Source: Comamonas odontotermitis
Lineage (GTDB): Bacteria; Pseudomonadota; Gammaproteobacteria; Burkholderiales; Burkholderiaceae_C
Direction of reading: 5' to 3'
NCBI RefSeq assembly: GCF_020080045.1
Contig: NZ_CP083451.1
Coordinates: 2,839,001-2,903,000, forward strand
DNA: 64,000 bases
Shown here piece after piece: positions 28,578 to 39,767 of the stretch. Within the stretch, counting starts at the first letter, position 1. Each line of letters begins with the position of its first letter. The notes beneath the pieces were generated by a model that was not told where the DNA came from, made no database searches, and was given only the letters and a program-made list of their open reading frames with translations. The position numbers were made by a program, and so were the translations under genes.

Positions 28578-28653
28578 TCCTCAATAGCTCAGTTGGTAGA
28601 GCGCCGGACTGTTAATCCGTAGGTCCCTGGTTCGAGCCCAGGTTGAGGAGCCA
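28578..28653 (+). tRNA. tRNA-Asn (GTT), copy 1
   Basis: 76 bases including the encoded CCA. Cloverleaf: acceptor tcctcaa / ttgagga, D arm gctcagttggtagagc, anticodon arm ccgga-ctGTTaa-tccgt (last pair weak), T arm cctgg-ttcgagc-ccagg. Anticodon GTT reads AAC and AAT. First of four identical genes on one transcript. Confidence 0.98.
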
Positions 28654-28700
28654 AAGATTTTTTCGGCTTTGCAATCGAACAAAGCCTTGTTGACCGATAT

Positions 28701-28776
28701 TCCTCAATAGCTCAGTTGGTAGAGCGCCGGACTGTTAATCCGTAGGTCCCTGGTTCGAGCCCAGGTTGAGGAGCCA
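28701..28776 (+). tRNA. tRNA-Asn (GTT), copy 2
   Basis: Identical in all 76 bases to copy 1, 47 bases downstream of it. The spacer carries an unrelated sequence, so the array has arisen by duplication with free drift of the spacers. Confidence 0.98.
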
Positions 28777-28825
28777 TCACACAACGCCCTGCAATCGCTC
28801 AGGGCACACTGTCAAACCGACATAT

Positions 28826-28901
28826 TCCTCAATAGCTCAGTTGGTAGAGCGCCGGACTGTTAATCCGTAGGTCCCTGGTTCGAGCCCAGGTTGAGGAGCC
28901 A
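28826..28901 (+). tRNA. tRNA-Asn (GTT), copy 3
   Basis: Identical to copies 1 and 2; spacer from copy 2 is 49 bases. The five bases ahead of it (catat, then tcctcaa) resemble those ahead of copies 2 and 4 (atat), hinting at a short duplicated leader. Confidence 0.98.
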
Positions 28902-28955
28902 AGACAGGGCACCTTGCAATTGCACAAGGCCGCCGCCAAAAATTTGTACCAATAT

Positions 28956-29031
28956 TCCTCAATAGCTCAGTTGGTAGAGCGCCGGACTGTTAATCCGTAG
29001 GTCCCTGGTTCGAGCCCAGGTTGAGGAGCCA
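28956..29031 (+). tRNA. tRNA-Asn (GTT), copy 4
   Basis: Identical to the other three; spacer from copy 3 is 54 bases. The gene is followed 4 bases later by the cluster terminator. Confidence 0.98.
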
Positions 29032-32991: not shown

Positions 32992-34530
32992 TCATCCTTG
33001 TGCAGCCACCTTCTCTGTAGGATTTTGTAACTTGTTGAGTGCAGCGATGTAAGCTTTCGCTGACGCGACCACGATATCCGGGTCAGCGCCCACACCATTG
33101 ACGATACGGCCGCCCTGCTGCAAGCGCACGGTCACCTCGCCCTGACTCTCGGTGGAACCACTGATGGCGTTGACCGCATAGAGCACCATTTCGGCGCCAC
33201 TCTTGGCCTGCGATTCGATGGCCTTCATTGAGGCATCCACCGGGCCGTTACCCGTGGATTCGCCCTTGACTTCCTTGCCGTGGGCCATCAGCACCACAGT
33301 CGCCTTGGGCTGCTCACCGGTCTCGCTTGCCTGGGCCAGCGAAACAAAGCGGAAAGCCTCGTGGTTGCTGTGACCGCCTTCGGTATTGACCAGCGCGAGG
33401 ATATCCTCGTCGAAGATCTCGCTCTTGCGGTCCGCCAGATCCTTGAAGCGGGCAAAGGCGGCATTGATGTCGCTCTCGCTCTCCATCACCACGCCCAGCT
33501 CCTGCAGGCGCTGCTTGAAGGCATTGCGGCCCGACAGCTTGCCCAGCACGATCTTGTTGGCGCTCCAGCCCACGTCTTCCGCGCGCATGATTTCGTAGGT
33601 GTCGCGTGCCTTCAGAACGCCATCCTGGTGAATGCCGGAGGCGTGGGCAAACGCATTGGCGCCCACCACGGCCTTGTTGGGCTGCACGACAAAGCCGGTG
33701 GTCTGGCTTACCATCTTGCTGGCAGCAACAATATGTTGCGTATCGATATTGACATCCAGCCCAAAGTAGTCACGGCGCGTCTTGACGGCCATCACTACTT
33801 CTTCGAGCGAGCAATTGCCCGCGCGCTCGCCCAGGCCATTGATGGTGCATTCCACCTGGCGCGCGCCGCCAATCTTGACGCCTGCCAGCGAATTGGCGAC
33901 CGCCATGCCCAGGTCATTGTGGCAGTGCACCGACCAGACCGCCTTGTCGCTGTTGGGAATGCGCTCGCGCAGGTTCTTGATGAAGTTGCCGTACAGCTCA
34001 GGAATGGCGTAGCCCACGGTGTCAGGCACGTTGATGGTAGTAGCGCCTTCGGCAATCACCGCCTCGATCACGCGGCAGAGAAAATCAGGGTCGCTGCGGT
34101 AGCCGTCTTCCGGGCTGAATTCGATATCGCCCACCAGATTGCGGGCAAAGCGCACCGACATCTTGGCCTGCTCGAACACCTCGTCAGGCGACATGCGCAG
34201 CTTTTTCTCCATGTGCAGCGGGCTGGTTGCAATGAAGGTGTGGATACGCGCGCGGTTGGCAGGCTTGAGCGCCTCTGCAGCACGAGCGATGTCACGGTCG
34301 TTGGCACGGGCCAGCGAGCACACGGTGGAATCCTTGATGATCGACGCAATGCTCTGCACACAGTCGAAATCACCATTGGAGCTGGCTGCAAAGCCCGCCT
34401 CGATCACATCCACCTTCAGGCGTTCAAGCTGGCGGGCAATGCGCAGCTTCTCGTCCTTGGTCATCGACGCGCCAGGCGATTGTTCGCCGTCACGCAAGGT
34501 GGTGTCAAAAATAATCAGTTGATCGCTCAT
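32992..34530 (-). CDS. leuA: 2-isopropylmalate synthase, short (proteobacterial) form
   Basis: 512 residues from ATG 34530, with GGAG six bases upstream; ATG 34542 is an alternative. The TIM-barrel catalytic domain starts [19 protein letters not shown] and carries the metal-site [13 protein letters not shown] (about 200) and [17 protein letters not shown]. The C-terminal LeuA dimer/allosteric domain is present (about 390-500), so leucine feedback is expected. It condenses 2-ketoisovalerate with acetyl-CoA. It follows a second, longer leuA on the same strand, 118 bases away. One of the two could serve another acyl substrate (for example citramalate-like chemistry), but motifs fit isopropylmalate synthase. 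Confidence 0.93.
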
Positions 34531-34648
34531 CGTGTTCTCCATGGCATGGGTTTGCAGGCAGCGCTTGTGGCGCCACCTCTGTTATTCAATGCGCAGCACG
34601 TCGCAGCCGGGCTCAACCTGACAGTGTACGTGCTTTGCCTGCATTTGC

Positions 34649-36388
34649 TTACGCGGCAACCGTGTCGCCCGCTGGCGTATTCACACGGGTGACAGCACCG
34701 CTGCGCGCCAGGGCGCTCATCACGGCGCGGAAGGCCGCCTGGGTGATGTTGCTGTCCATGCCTGCACCGTACAGGGTCTGACTCTCATTTACCCGCAACT
34801 CCACATAGGCTGCAGCCTTGGCGTTGGCACCATTTTGGCCTCCGGCACCCACCCCAAAAGCGCCATCAGCTACGGAATGCATAGCATGCTCGCTGTAATC
34901 CAACACCCGCACCGGCACGCCGGTGGCGCTGCTGATGGCGTGGACAAAGGCGTCGATAGGTCCGTTGCCCTGCCCTTGCAGCGAAATGGACTGGCCCGCA
35001 ATCTGTACCTTGCCGGACACCCGCACCTCACCATCGTTGCTGCCCGCAGGCTCCACGCGGCATTGGGCGACGGCATAGTTGGCGTCCAGCTGGTATTCGC
35101 GCTCAAAGATCCGCCACAGGTCTGGCGCTGTGAACTCAGTGCCCGCCACATCCATGGCGCGCTGCACCACCTGGCTGAACTCGATCTGCAGGCGCCGCGG
35201 CATGGTGAGTCCGTATTCCTCTTCGAGCAGATACGAGATACCGCCCTTGCCCGACTGGCTGTTGACGCGGATCACCGCTTCGTAGCTGCGCCCCAGGTCC
35301 TTGGGGTCGATGGGCAGGTACGGCATCTCCCACACATCGCCTTCGTTGCGCGCTGCAAAGGCTTTCTTGATGGCGTCCTGGTGCGAGCCCGAGAACGAGG
35401 TATAGACCAGATCGCCTGCGTAAGGATGGCGGGCAGGTACGGGCAACTGGTTGCAGTGCTCGACCTCGGCACGGACCGCGTCGATATCCGAGAAATCAAG
35501 CCCGGGCGACACACCCTGCACATACATGTTGAGCGCCACGTTGACGATGTCGAGGTTGCCGGTGCGTTCGCCATTGCCGAACAGGCACCCTTCCACACGG
35601 TGCGCCCCTGCCAGCAGCGCCATTTCGGCGCTGGCGGTGCCAGTGCCACGGTCGTTGTGCGGGTGCACGGACACCACGACTTCCGGGCGCCCCTTGAACT
35701 GGCGCACCATCCACTCGATCTGGTCTGCAAACACATTGGGGGTGGTGTTTTCCACCGTGGTGGGCAGGTTCAGGATGATGTCGCGGCCCGCACCCCAGGC
35801 GGCGATCGCGGTTTCGCAGGCCTGCAGCGACACATCCAGCTCTGCCAGCGAGAAAGTCTCGGGCGAATACTGCAAGATCCACTCGGTGCCGGGCTGGGCG
35901 TCGGTCAAGGCCTTCAGGTGGGCCACCTGCGATTGCACGAGCTCCATCACCTCGGGCACGCTCATGCCAAACACCACCTTGCGCCACACCGGAGCCACCG
36001 CGTTGTAGATGTGAACGATGGCGCGCGGAGCGCCTTGCAGGGCTTCGACGGTGCGGGTGATGAGCTCGGGGCGGGCCGGGGTCATGACCTGGATCGTCAC
36101 ATCGGCGGGAATCCGCTTTTCCTCAATCAACTGGCGCACGAAATCGAATTCGATCTGCGACGAGGCCGGAAAGCCGACTTCGATCTCCTTGAAGCCGATC
36201 TTGACCAGCATGTCGAACATCCGCAGCTTGCGCGCCAAGTCCATGGGCTCGATCAGGGCCTGGTTGCCGTCGCGCAGATCGGTGGACAGCCAGATGGGCG
36301 CCTGGGTGATCTGGGCATCGGGCCAGGTGCGGTCCTGCAACTGAACGGCTGGAAAGGCGCGGTACTTGCTGGCGGGGTTCTTCAACAT
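34649..36388 (-). CDS. leuA: 2-isopropylmalate synthase, long form
   Basis: 579 residues from ATG 36388, where the conserved MLKNPASKYRAFPAV begins. This is the longer LeuA class (550-600 residues) shared with actinobacteria and yeast. Landmarks: WLSTDLRDGNQALIEPM (metal/catalytic start of the barrel), FPASSQIEFDFVRQLIEE, VHPHNDRGTGTASAEM (metal His pair) and GCLFGNGERTGNLDIV, followed by a C-terminal allosteric domain (about 425-565). It makes 2-isopropylmalate, the first step of leucine synthesis. A leucine-rich leader peptide and an attenuator precede it, so it is probably induced when charged tRNA-Leu is scarce. Confidence 0.95.
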   Translation of the reverse strand: MLKNPASKYRAFPAVQLQDRTWPDAQITQAPIWLSTDLRDGNQALIEPMDLARKLRMFDMLVKIGFKEIEVGFPASSQIEFDFVRQLIEEKRIPADVTIQVMTPARPELITRTVEALQGAPRAIVHIYNAVAPVWRKVVFGMSVPEVMELVQSQVAHLKALTDAQPGTEWILQYSPETFSLAELDVSLQACETAIAAWGAGRDIILNLPTTVENTTPNVFADQIEWMVRQFKGRPEVVVSVHPHNDRGTGTASAEMALLAGAHRVEGCLFGNGERTGNLDIVNVALNMYVQGVSPGLDFSDIDAVRAEVEHCNQLPVPARHPYAGDLVYTSFSGSHQDAIKKAFAARNEGDVWEMPYLPIDPKDLGRSYEAVIRVNSQSGKGGISYLLEEEYGLTMPRRLQIEFSQVVQRAMDVAGTEFTAPDLWRIFEREYQLDANYAVAQCRVEPAGSNDGEVRVSGKVQIAGQSISLQGQGNGPIDAFVHAISSATGVPVRVLDYSEHAMHSVADGAFGVGAGGQNGANAKAAAYVELRVNESQTLYGAGMDSNITQAAFRAVMSALARSGAVTRVNTPAGDTVAA

Positions 36389-36446
36389 GGTTGTCTGGTC
36401 TTTCTCATCGAAACAAAAAGTTCGGGGGGTGGAAACCAGCAACCTG

Positions 36447-36487
36447 CAAAAACAGAATCGGCCCGTTGCTGGTGCAAACGGGCCGAT
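36447..36487 (-). terminator. Attenuator terminator in front of leuA
   Basis: On the minus strand an 11-base perfect stem ATCGGCCCGTT / AACGGGCCGAT (36487-36477 and 36467-36457) with a 9-base loop is followed by TCTGTTTTT. It lies 26 bases after the leader peptide stop and about 60 before the leuA start. Its 5' arm GCCCGTT can instead pair with AACGGGC inside the leader frame (36530-36524), forming a competing antiterminator. Confidence 0.85.
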
Positions 36488-36512
36488 GGATGTAGGGTGA
36501 AAACTGTGCGCG

Positions 36513-36566
36513 CTACTCTACCTGCCCGTTGGACATTAGTAGTAGAGCTAGGGACAGGTTTTGCAT
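36513..36566 (-). CDS. leuA leader peptide (leucine attenuation)
   Basis: A 17-residue frame, MQNLSLALLLMSNGQVE, with five leucine codons at positions 4, 6, 8, 9 and 10: one CTG followed by four CTA. CTA should be a rare codon in such a GC-rich genome, which makes a ribosome sensitive to low Leu-tRNA. The stop is followed by a strong intrinsic terminator. Stalling at the CTA run would leave the downstream AACGGGC free to pair with the terminator 5' arm and so let RNA polymerase read on into leuA. The family logic is that of enteric leuL; I do not know of this exact peptide. The ribosome binding site is weak (GAG, about 9 bases upstream). Confidence 0.82.
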   Translation of the reverse strand: MQNLSLALLLMSNGQVE

Positions 36567-36611
36567 GTGGGCTACTCTAACACAGGTTTTTCGGCCTGTG
36601 CAACAGATTCT

Positions 36612-37499
36612 TCAATCGTGGTGCAGGCCGCGCTCGTCAGGCTCGTCGGTCGAAGTGGCCACAATCGAGACCTGCTGGCCCTTGGCGCGGCGCCATGCAT
36701 AGATGATGTAGCCCGAGACGGAGTAGGCCACGAAGATGAGGAACAGCATGGTCGCAGGCTCAATGCTCACCAGCGCCAGCACCAGCACCACCACCACCAG
36801 CGAGATGAACGGCACGCTCTTGGCCATGCCCGCATCCTTGAAGCTGTAGTACGGGATGTTCGTCACCATGGTCAGGCCCGCAAACAGAGTGATGGCGAAC
36901 ATGATCCACGACAGGTCTTCACGGCTCGCCGGGTGGCCGCCGAACAAGGCGATCACCTCGCCAAAGATCGGCACATCGCGGTGCGACACCAGCAGCGCGC
37001 TGGTCAGCCAGATGAAGCCCGCCACCAGGGCCGCAGCCGCCGGCGAAGGCATGCCCTGGAAGTAGCGCTTGTCCACCACGCCCGTATTGACGTTGAAGCG
37101 CGCCAGACGCAGTGCGGCGCACGAGCAGTAGACGAATGCCGCAATCCAGCCCCAGCGGCCCAGCGGGCGCAGGGCCCACTCGTAGGCGATGAGCGCAGGC
37201 GCCGCGCCGAAGGACACCATGTCCGAGAGCGAATCCATCTGCTCGCCAAAAGCGCTCTGGGTGTGCGTCATACGGGCCACGCGGCCGTCCAGGCTGTCGA
37301 GCACCATGGCGCAGAATACGCCCACGGCAGCGGCTTCAAAGCGGCCGTTCATCGCCATCACAATGGCGTAGAACCCACCAAACAGCGCCGCCAGGGTGAA
37401 GGAGTTGGGCAGCACATAAATGCCTTTGCGCCACCTGCGTTGCGCAGCGGCCGGGCCTTCTGCGCCCTGCCTGGGCTTGGTTTCGTTGTTATCCAGCAT
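36612..37499 (-). CDS. pssA: CDP-diacylglycerol--serine O-phosphatidyltransferase
   Basis: 295 residues, membrane-bound CDP-alcohol phosphatidyltransferase. The active-site motif is complete: DSLDGRVARMTHTQSAFGEQMDSLSD (about residues 67-92), followed by the PssA-type SFGAAPALIAYEWAL. About eight hydrophobic helices follow. It makes phosphatidylserine, precursor of phosphatidylethanolamine, in the inner membrane. Its place between ilvC and leuA is conserved in many betaproteobacteria although the pathway is unrelated. The leuA leader begins 46 bases after its stop. Confidence 0.95.
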   Translation of the reverse strand: MLDNNETKPRQGAEGPAAAQRRWRKGIYVLPNSFTLAALFGGFYAIVMAMNGRFEAAAVGVFCAMVLDSLDGRVARMTHTQSAFGEQMDSLSDMVSFGAAPALIAYEWALRPLGRWGWIAAFVYCSCAALRLARFNVNTGVVDKRYFQGMPSPAAAALVAGFIWLTSALLVSHRDVPIFGEVIALFGGHPASREDLSWIMFAITLFAGLTMVTNIPYYSFKDAGMAKSVPFISLVVVVLVLALVSIEPATMLFLIFVAYSVSGYIIYAWRRAKGQQVSIVATSTDEPDERGLHHD

Positions 37500-39677: not shown

Positions 39678-39767
39678 GGGATGAGATTCCTCTTTTCGCT
39701 GCCCTCCCCCTGCACCGGTAAGTGCAGGGCTCGGCAGTCAATAGATTCGTCAATAAGGGGATAAGCT

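Follow-up and report, generated by a model that had tools for sequence, protein, structure and literature searches.

A probable leucine attenuator ahead of leuA in Comamonas odontotermitis and a conserved pairing strand downstream of its terminator

The window analysed here, a stretch of 64,000 nucleotides from Comamonas odontotermitis, comprises on its minus strand the genes ilvB, ilvH, ilvC and pssA together with a long and a short leuA, all named by NCBIfam. The end of pssA lies at 36612, just 5' of the element described here, and is followed on the same strand by a candidate promoter, an open reading frame of 17 codons, a terminator hairpin and the long leuA (34649 to 36388, minus strand, 579 aa), which encodes a 2-isopropylmalate synthase of the PRK03739 or leuA_yeast type (NF002991 with 815 bits, TIGR00970 above the cut-off). 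The short leuA is of the bacterial type, and the genes for both types of 2-isopropylmalate synthase stand in tandem at 32992 to 36388 (minus strand), the long one first, with 106 bp between them. A covariance model (see below) found one such element in this genome, ahead of the long leuA. Furthermore, the window contains a match to the ilvH RNA (RF02993, 93.9 bits) at 39684 to 39751 (minus strand), directly 5' of ilvH, and a tandem of four tRNA matches with identical scores at 28578 to 29028 (plus strand).

The leader ORF (MQNLSLALLLMSNGQVE, 36513 to 36566, minus strand) runs from the ATG at 36566 to the TAG at 36513. Direct reading of the minus strand showed that the coordinates given in an earlier note for leader, antiterminator and terminator are correct, as is its count of 17 codons with five for Leu, four of them CTA (CTG at 36557-55; CTA at 36551-49, 36545-43, 36542-40 and 36539-37). 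The stretch with the four CTA codons (CTA GCT CTA CTA CTA, 36537 to 36551, minus strand) represents the putative control codons and at the same time region 1 of the pairings discussed below. Upstream of the leader, an extended -10 (TGtTAGAGT, 36574 to 36582, minus strand) ends 7 nt 5' of the ATG, and a candidate -35 (TTGCAC, 36598 to 36603, minus strand), proposed from the sequence alone, is separated from it by a spacer of 18 nt. A strict consensus scan was silent on this -35 and reported neither a promoter nor a terminator at the element, its loop limit being 8 and the loop here comprising 9 nt.

Region 2 (AACGGGC, 36524 to 36530, minus strand), the 5' strand of the antiterminator, lies at the end of the leader ORF and is complementary to GCCCGTT (36483-36477) within the 5' arm of the terminator, just as the earlier note had described. 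This 5' arm is region 3 (ATCGGCCCGTT, 36477 to 36487, minus strand); it is followed by the loop TGCACCAGC of 9 nt and by the 3' arm (AACGGGCCGAT, 36457 to 36467, minus strand), which forms the lower part of region 4. The stem is perfect over 11 bp, as had been claimed, but the T run claimed with it is interrupted, being present as a T-rich tail (TCTGTTTTT, 36448 to 36456, minus strand). Folding of the terminator stretch resulted in a z of -3.9, which was equalled by none of 200 shuffles.

For the comparison, the window was combined with 80 of 488 genome loci and with 100 stretches drawn from the 104 matches to a long leuA that were listed for 200 genomes of the same family. These 181 stretches yielded 93 non-redundant rows matching a regular expression for the terminator, of which 90 were retained as class-1 rows, since L202 and L049 were spurious and L146 offered too little downstream sequence. 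Alignment A1 comprises 50 and alignment A2 23 of the 90 rows; the remaining 17, which had hard-to-align loop types or were near-duplicates, were omitted. The element is not universal: among the window and the 100 same-family stretches, 71 matched the terminator expression (one of them, L202, spuriously), 12 carried another leader class, and 18 of the 101 fell into neither class. Scans with the covariance model, which was built on A1, located the element at E<=1e-6 in 127 of 200 genomes from the same family. At E<=1e-3 it was matched in 10 of 61 genomes from a different family, nine of which belong to a single genus, and at E<=0.01 in 28 of 300 genomes across the order, many of the matches in this last scan being weak. 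Rfam gave no match at E<=1 for 36360-36660 of the window and none above gathering in the 20 loci scanned out of the 80.

A lack of conservation in related genomes had been named in the earlier note as an observation that would speak against its reading. Instead, the 90 rows have retained the frame of the leader with its CTA codons, the strand of the antiterminator and the terminator itself. Each of the 90 leaders comprises at least one CTA, and CTA accounts for 232 of their 389 Leu codons (60%). The frequency of this codon, which the note had suggested determining genome-wide, is low within the window, where 37 ORFs of high GC3 contain 23 CTA among 1614 Leu codons (1.4%). Among the 806 ATG mini-ORFs of the window with 8 to 40 codons, the leader is the only one with at least three CTA codons.

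A TANNNT hexamer ends 6-10 nt 5' of the leader start in all 90 rows, in 47 of them at 7 nt, and is preceded by TG in 85, the leader starts having been selected among candidates with this motif in mind. As a control, TANNNT at 4-11 nt was found in 162 of 1800 shuffled upstream sequences and at 43 of 2297 window ATGs. Since transcription starting 6-8 nt past the -10 would begin on or beside the start codon, the leader is probably leaderless, with transcription predicted to begin no more than about 3 nt away from the ATG. Both this start and a pairing partner located past the terminator (36443-36435) had been overlooked by the earlier note.

The 2:3 helix comprises at least 6 bp in 74 and at least 5 bp in 86 of the 90 rows. 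The CGGG motif of the leaders is found in differing codon frames (48, 30 and 5 rows; absent in 7), which indicates that the RNA rather than the peptide is conserved. In the window, the antiterminator match is moderately unlikely to have arisen by chance (6 of 200 synonymous recodings were equal), and 2:3 beats 95% of the synonymous recodings in 40 of 90 rows only. For the terminator stem, 96.3% of the cells in A1 and 98.8% in A2 are paired. With regard to compensatory changes, which the earlier note had proposed to look for, complementarity is kept, but the covariation of 2:3 and 1:2 is nearly nil, which can be explained by alignment columns that hardly vary. The note had further described CTCTAC/GTAGAG and CCTGTCC/GGGCAGG as alternating, mutually exclusive pairs within the leader. 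Both occur, and since they are interleaved, only a pseudoknot would allow them to form together; GTAGAG, though, occurs in only 7 of the 50 A1 rows, four of them Comamonas rows with the motif at the place described and three with it starting at the stop codon. What A1 retains of the 1:2 pairing is CTAC with the GTAG of the stop-codon region. This region is part of a block comprising the leader stop and GTAGAGTAGCGC (36510 to 36521, minus strand), which pairs with the Leu codons and whose conservation is otherwise unexplained. The TAGCGCGC block at and after the leader stop (36515-36508, minus strand; A1 columns 57-68) is likewise strongly conserved, beyond the needs of the 1:2 pairing.

The locus thus comprises an ORF with multiple Leu codons ahead of a biosynthetic gene and an intrinsic terminator between leader and gene. 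To this is added an exclusive antiterminator strand near the leader end, recognised by its complementarity and without support from covariation, which a ribosome at the stop codon would cover and a ribosome stalled at the Leu codons would not. We assign a probability of roughly 85% to the reading that the element controls leuA as a ribosome-mediated attenuator responding to leucine; the earlier note's interpretation, that all parts of a ribosome-stalling switch are present and that its function can be inferred from them, is supported by the conservation in 90 rows. Transcription would start at or near the leader ATG, and the 17 codons would be translated as a leaderless mRNA. As long as charged tRNA-Leu for CUA is present, the ribosome would reach the stop codon and cover region 2, the terminator (3:4) would fold and a short RNA would be released. 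When leucine is short, the ribosome would stall on the CTA codons, region 2 would capture the 5' arm of the terminator (2:3) and leuA would be transcribed. Stalling and termination are predicted here from the arrangement of the parts.

In addition to the parts of the attenuator, a strand past its U-tract was found to be complementary to the hairpin. This region 5 (GTTGCTGGT, 36435 to 36443, minus strand) starts 13 nt past the terminator stem and matches 36473-36465, where the region 4 strand of the additional helix (ACCAGCAAC, 36465 to 36473, minus strand) comprises the apical loop and the 3' side of the terminator. In a permutation test with 91 rows (L146 included), 44 loop types combined with their own downstream sequences reached a total of -843.5 kcal/mol, compared to a mean of -691.7 (sd 17.8) and a best value of -753.5 in 5000 permutations. 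In the shuffles of single rows, based on the same 91 rows, 65 beat at least 95 of 100 shuffles. The downstream sequence of the window was short of its last C in these tests, as it was in the permutations, recodings and opening costs given below for region 5 and leuA. A contiguous 4:5 helix of at least 8 bp is present in 75 of the 90 long-leuA rows, and one of less than 7 bp in 5.

In A1, pairing holds for 96.9% of the 4:5 cells, and double changes were counted in 24 cells, compared to 5.2 in the shuffles (0 of 500 as high) and to only 4 in the terminator stem. The two measures that are least prone to relatedness are both weaker, namely the double-changed pairs (4 vs 2.0; 22 of 500 shuffles as high) and the further pair types (7 vs 7.0; 352 of 500 as high). 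In 10 of the 50 rows, the bases of 121:165, the outermost pair, do not match. In A2 (23 rows), 90.2% of the 4:5 cells are paired and the covariation score was reached by 4 of 500 shuffles; the counts of double changes were unexceptional, with 154 and 140 of 500 shuffles as high. On a LeuA tree of 38 rows, the three varying 4:5 pairs changed 6, 1 and 2 times, always jointly (at least 9 changes in total), where the bases were coded as G or not and C or not and one mismatched row (TT at 128:158) was scored as unchanged. The starred branches leave 3, 1 and 1 independent pairs, all of them concordant and too few for significance. The upper terminator pair 117:127 is broken with 4:5 kept in 13 of the 50 A1 rows, and the reverse was seen twice, at column 129. 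Altogether, the existence of the 4:5 pairing is strongly supported by the comparison of sequences.

The element is also found ahead of the short leuA, whose product is about 25% identical to that of the long one. At least five further places aside, 60 places matched by the covariance model away from a long leuA were fetched, and the short leuA follows the element in all 60 of these loci as well as in L220, L221 and L224. The resulting set comprises 66 loci, 59 of them with a terminator matching the expression, of which 56 lie before the short leuA. In these rows, 36 loop types reached -544.1 for 4:5, compared to -453.6 (sd 12.5) after permutation, and none of 5000 permutations was as good. The helix comprises at least 8 bp in 39 and less than 7 bp in 15 of the 56 rows, so that at least 8 bp are reached in 69.6% of the own pairings, compared to 30.5% of those with foreign downstream sequences.

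Two further leader classes were observed in the sample. A second class of 38 loci upstream of the long leuA (including L041, L060, L073 and L180; 21 aligned) shows a CTA-bearing leader, an extended -10 just 5' of the leader in 32 of the 38 loci, and within the leader a near-invariant GGCCGGGGTC, complementary to a downstream GA(C/T)CCCGGCC. No intrinsic terminator was seen in this class, and Rfam gave no match in the members scanned. A third class from Cupriavidus and Collimonas (24 loci including L029, L040 and L053; 17 aligned) shows a CTA leader ending in GATCGGTTGCC(G/T)GGCC, the downstream partner of which mostly differs in step (TCGGCAGCC or CAGGCAACC), with no clear U-tract terminator. 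Finally, the covariance model matched L226 (1480-1700), a locus of another family, ahead of an ORF that, judged by its motif, would be DAHP-synthase-like. Its leader is MYFHATLYFWYYFSKPRAEKG, and GGGCGGAGA..GGTAGCGCGC is common to L226 and the leucine leaders.

Since region 5 is made only after the U-tract, it should, based on the established mechanism, not influence the termination decision. Several roles for it were considered and rejected. One was a nested 4:5 helix that would displace the terminator and so lock antitermination; in 85 rows this helix was never the better of the two, with a median disadvantage of 11 kcal/mol. A second terminator would need a T run after region 5, which was seen by eye in some rows only. 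Pairing between region 5 and the sequence preceding leuA does not stand out as conserved, 121 of 2000 permutations being as good.

The most likely role of region 5, which we put forward tentatively, is the formation of an H-type pseudoknot with the terminator stem in the read-through leuA mRNA, which would set the stability or the translation of this mRNA. The loop lengths, with 2-11 nt for L1 and 11-34 nt for L3, fit this geometry in most rows, judged by lengths only. The GGGCC core is largely spared by 4:5 (at most one core base used in 80 of 90 rows), and the helix abuts the GGGCC arm without a gap in 53 and overlaps it in 7 of 85 rows. For the read-through mRNAs of the SAM-II riboswitch of S. 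meliloti, too, a pseudoknot has been discussed, which lies in the 5' UTR and would stabilise the mRNA against RNase E (PMC9373788). The candidate pseudoknot described here shares its position in such a 5' UTR, but the SAM-II element is a ligand-bound riboswitch and not ribosome-mediated, and no homology is claimed.

The data on co-evolution would fit a pairing in trans as well as one in cis. According to this explanation, which we regard as possible but rather doubtful, the leader RNA released by termination would act as an attenuator-derived small RNA, pairing by its terminator loop with region 5 and thereby repressing the leuA mRNA. The median distance from the end of region 5 to the leuA ATG is 28 nt (range 20-55), and a precedent is given by rnTrpL from the trpLE(G) attenuator of S. 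meliloti, an RNA that begins at the leader ATG, is freed by termination and reportedly has trpDC mRNA as its target in trans (PMC7298713). As far as that report describes it, this system resembles the element in where its attenuator RNA begins and in how this RNA is released, both of which are predicted for the element, but rnTrpL belongs to tryptophan and to Alphaproteobacteria, and the action in trans reported there is only a possibility here. G044 is a genome that carries the element twice, and there both loops prefer the region 5 of their own element (-18.3 and -18.5 vs -12.3 and -14.0); however, this is a single genome and the values fit pairing in cis equally. Against an action in trans, the same loop sits in cis on the mRNA and should win by proximity, and no region-5-like site (GGTTGCTGGT, at most one mismatch) was found just 5' of the short leuA of the window.

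An improbable alternative is a relay of the pairings 1:2, 2:3, 3:4, 4:5 and 5:6, in which a formed terminator would leave region 5 free to close the leuA start (region 6), whereas after antitermination region 4 would take region 5 and the start would open. In the window, ACCAGACAACC (36389 to 36399, minus strand) lies beside the leuA ATG; apart from one bulge it is the complement of region 5, to which it is bound in the predicted fold. This stretch is a candidate for region 6 in Comamonas loci, and none was seen by eye beyond close relatives. Own region 5 with own first leuA codons reached -1266.2, compared to -1154.7 (sd 21.9) after permutation (0 of 2000 as good), but this test is open to relatedness, and synonymous recodings were exceeded in 14 of 90 rows only (mean z of -0.55). 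The cost of opening the leuA start was 10.9 kcal/mol on average without and 8.4 kcal/mol with region 4, the former being higher in 71 of 90 rows, and the own loop was better than a foreign one in 83 of 90. When region 5 was shuffled 40 times, no more than 2 shuffles closed the start to the same extent in 28 of 85 rows, the window among them, although only 55 of 85 rows exceeded the shuffle mean. Furthermore, region 5 is retained ahead of the short leuA as well, a gene with a different coding start, and the nested 4:5 loses to the terminator as given above. The pairing of region 5 with leuA codons was thus rejected as its conserved purpose; a relay that acts on the leuA start finds some support, mostly in the clade of the window, and is unlikely in such a general role.

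It is very improbable that regions 4 and 5 represent a DNA inverted repeat bound by a protein. The arms of 9 bp, about 21 bp apart in the window, would suit such a dyad, but the sequence varies widely (ACCAGCAAC, CTCGCAGC, ATTCGCAAC) with complementarity including G-U kept, and this argues against a protein site, which would be expected to keep its sequence. That the hairpin simply terminates the upstream ilv-pssA genes, as the end of pssA just upstream on the same strand might suggest, with a fortuitous Leu-rich ORF beside it, is scarcely credible, since leader, CTA bias and -10 spacing are kept in 90 of 90 rows, which also rules out a fortuitous hairpin at the pssA end, and in other genomes the element is located ahead of the short leuA.

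In the enteric leu attenuator (leuL; Salmonella and E. coli), a leader ORF, alternative hairpins and an intrinsic terminator lie ahead of leuA, and the element described here shares this arrangement, including a short leader ORF with CUA as control codon. It differs in its apparently leaderless leader, in a leuA of the PRK03739/yeast type and in the extra pairing of region 5; we know of no downstream strand like region 5 in the enteric leu leader. For S. typhimurium, replacement of CUA by CUG in the leu leader has been reported to lower sensitivity (PMC1183508). The actinobacterial LEU element comprises a Leu-codon leader and a pseudoknot before leuA; its Leu codons are reported to base-pair with the Shine-Dalgarno of leuA, and the remaining components of an attenuator to be absent (PMC1262725). 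The element of the window is similar in its Leu-codon leader and its candidate pseudoknot ahead of leuA, but differs from that description by its intrinsic terminator. A pairing of the LEU type between the CTA run and the 22 nt before leuA was sought, and the longest contiguous helix comprised 3 bp in the window, with at least 5 bp in 8 of 90 rows.

The name leuA does not occur in the main text of PMC2965389, PMC8632094 and PMC4833913. No description of the element was found in the literature searched, with most subscription journals outside its coverage, and its absence from print is not claimed. Attenuators of leuA in Betaproteobacteria may be listed by Vitreschak 2004 and Lopatovskaya 2010.

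The logic of the attenuator is already known; the new conserved part, as judged by the comparison of sequences, is the strand past the terminator that co-evolves with it. Textbook attenuation stops at the U-tract. A strand that is made later, and whose co-evolution with the terminator loop is clearer than that of the two stem arms with each other, implies a further use of the hairpin. The probable leaderless leader would extend to leucine a design reported for an alphaproteobacterial trp attenuator. Depending on the genome, the element precedes either the long or the short leuA, which helps to tell which isozyme is leucine-responsive. We see an even chance that the attenuator still regulates after the termination decision, in that its terminator loop would dock to region 5, be it as a pseudoknot in cis or in trans, and this would add a post-transcriptional layer tied to leucine in a large group of Burkholderiales.
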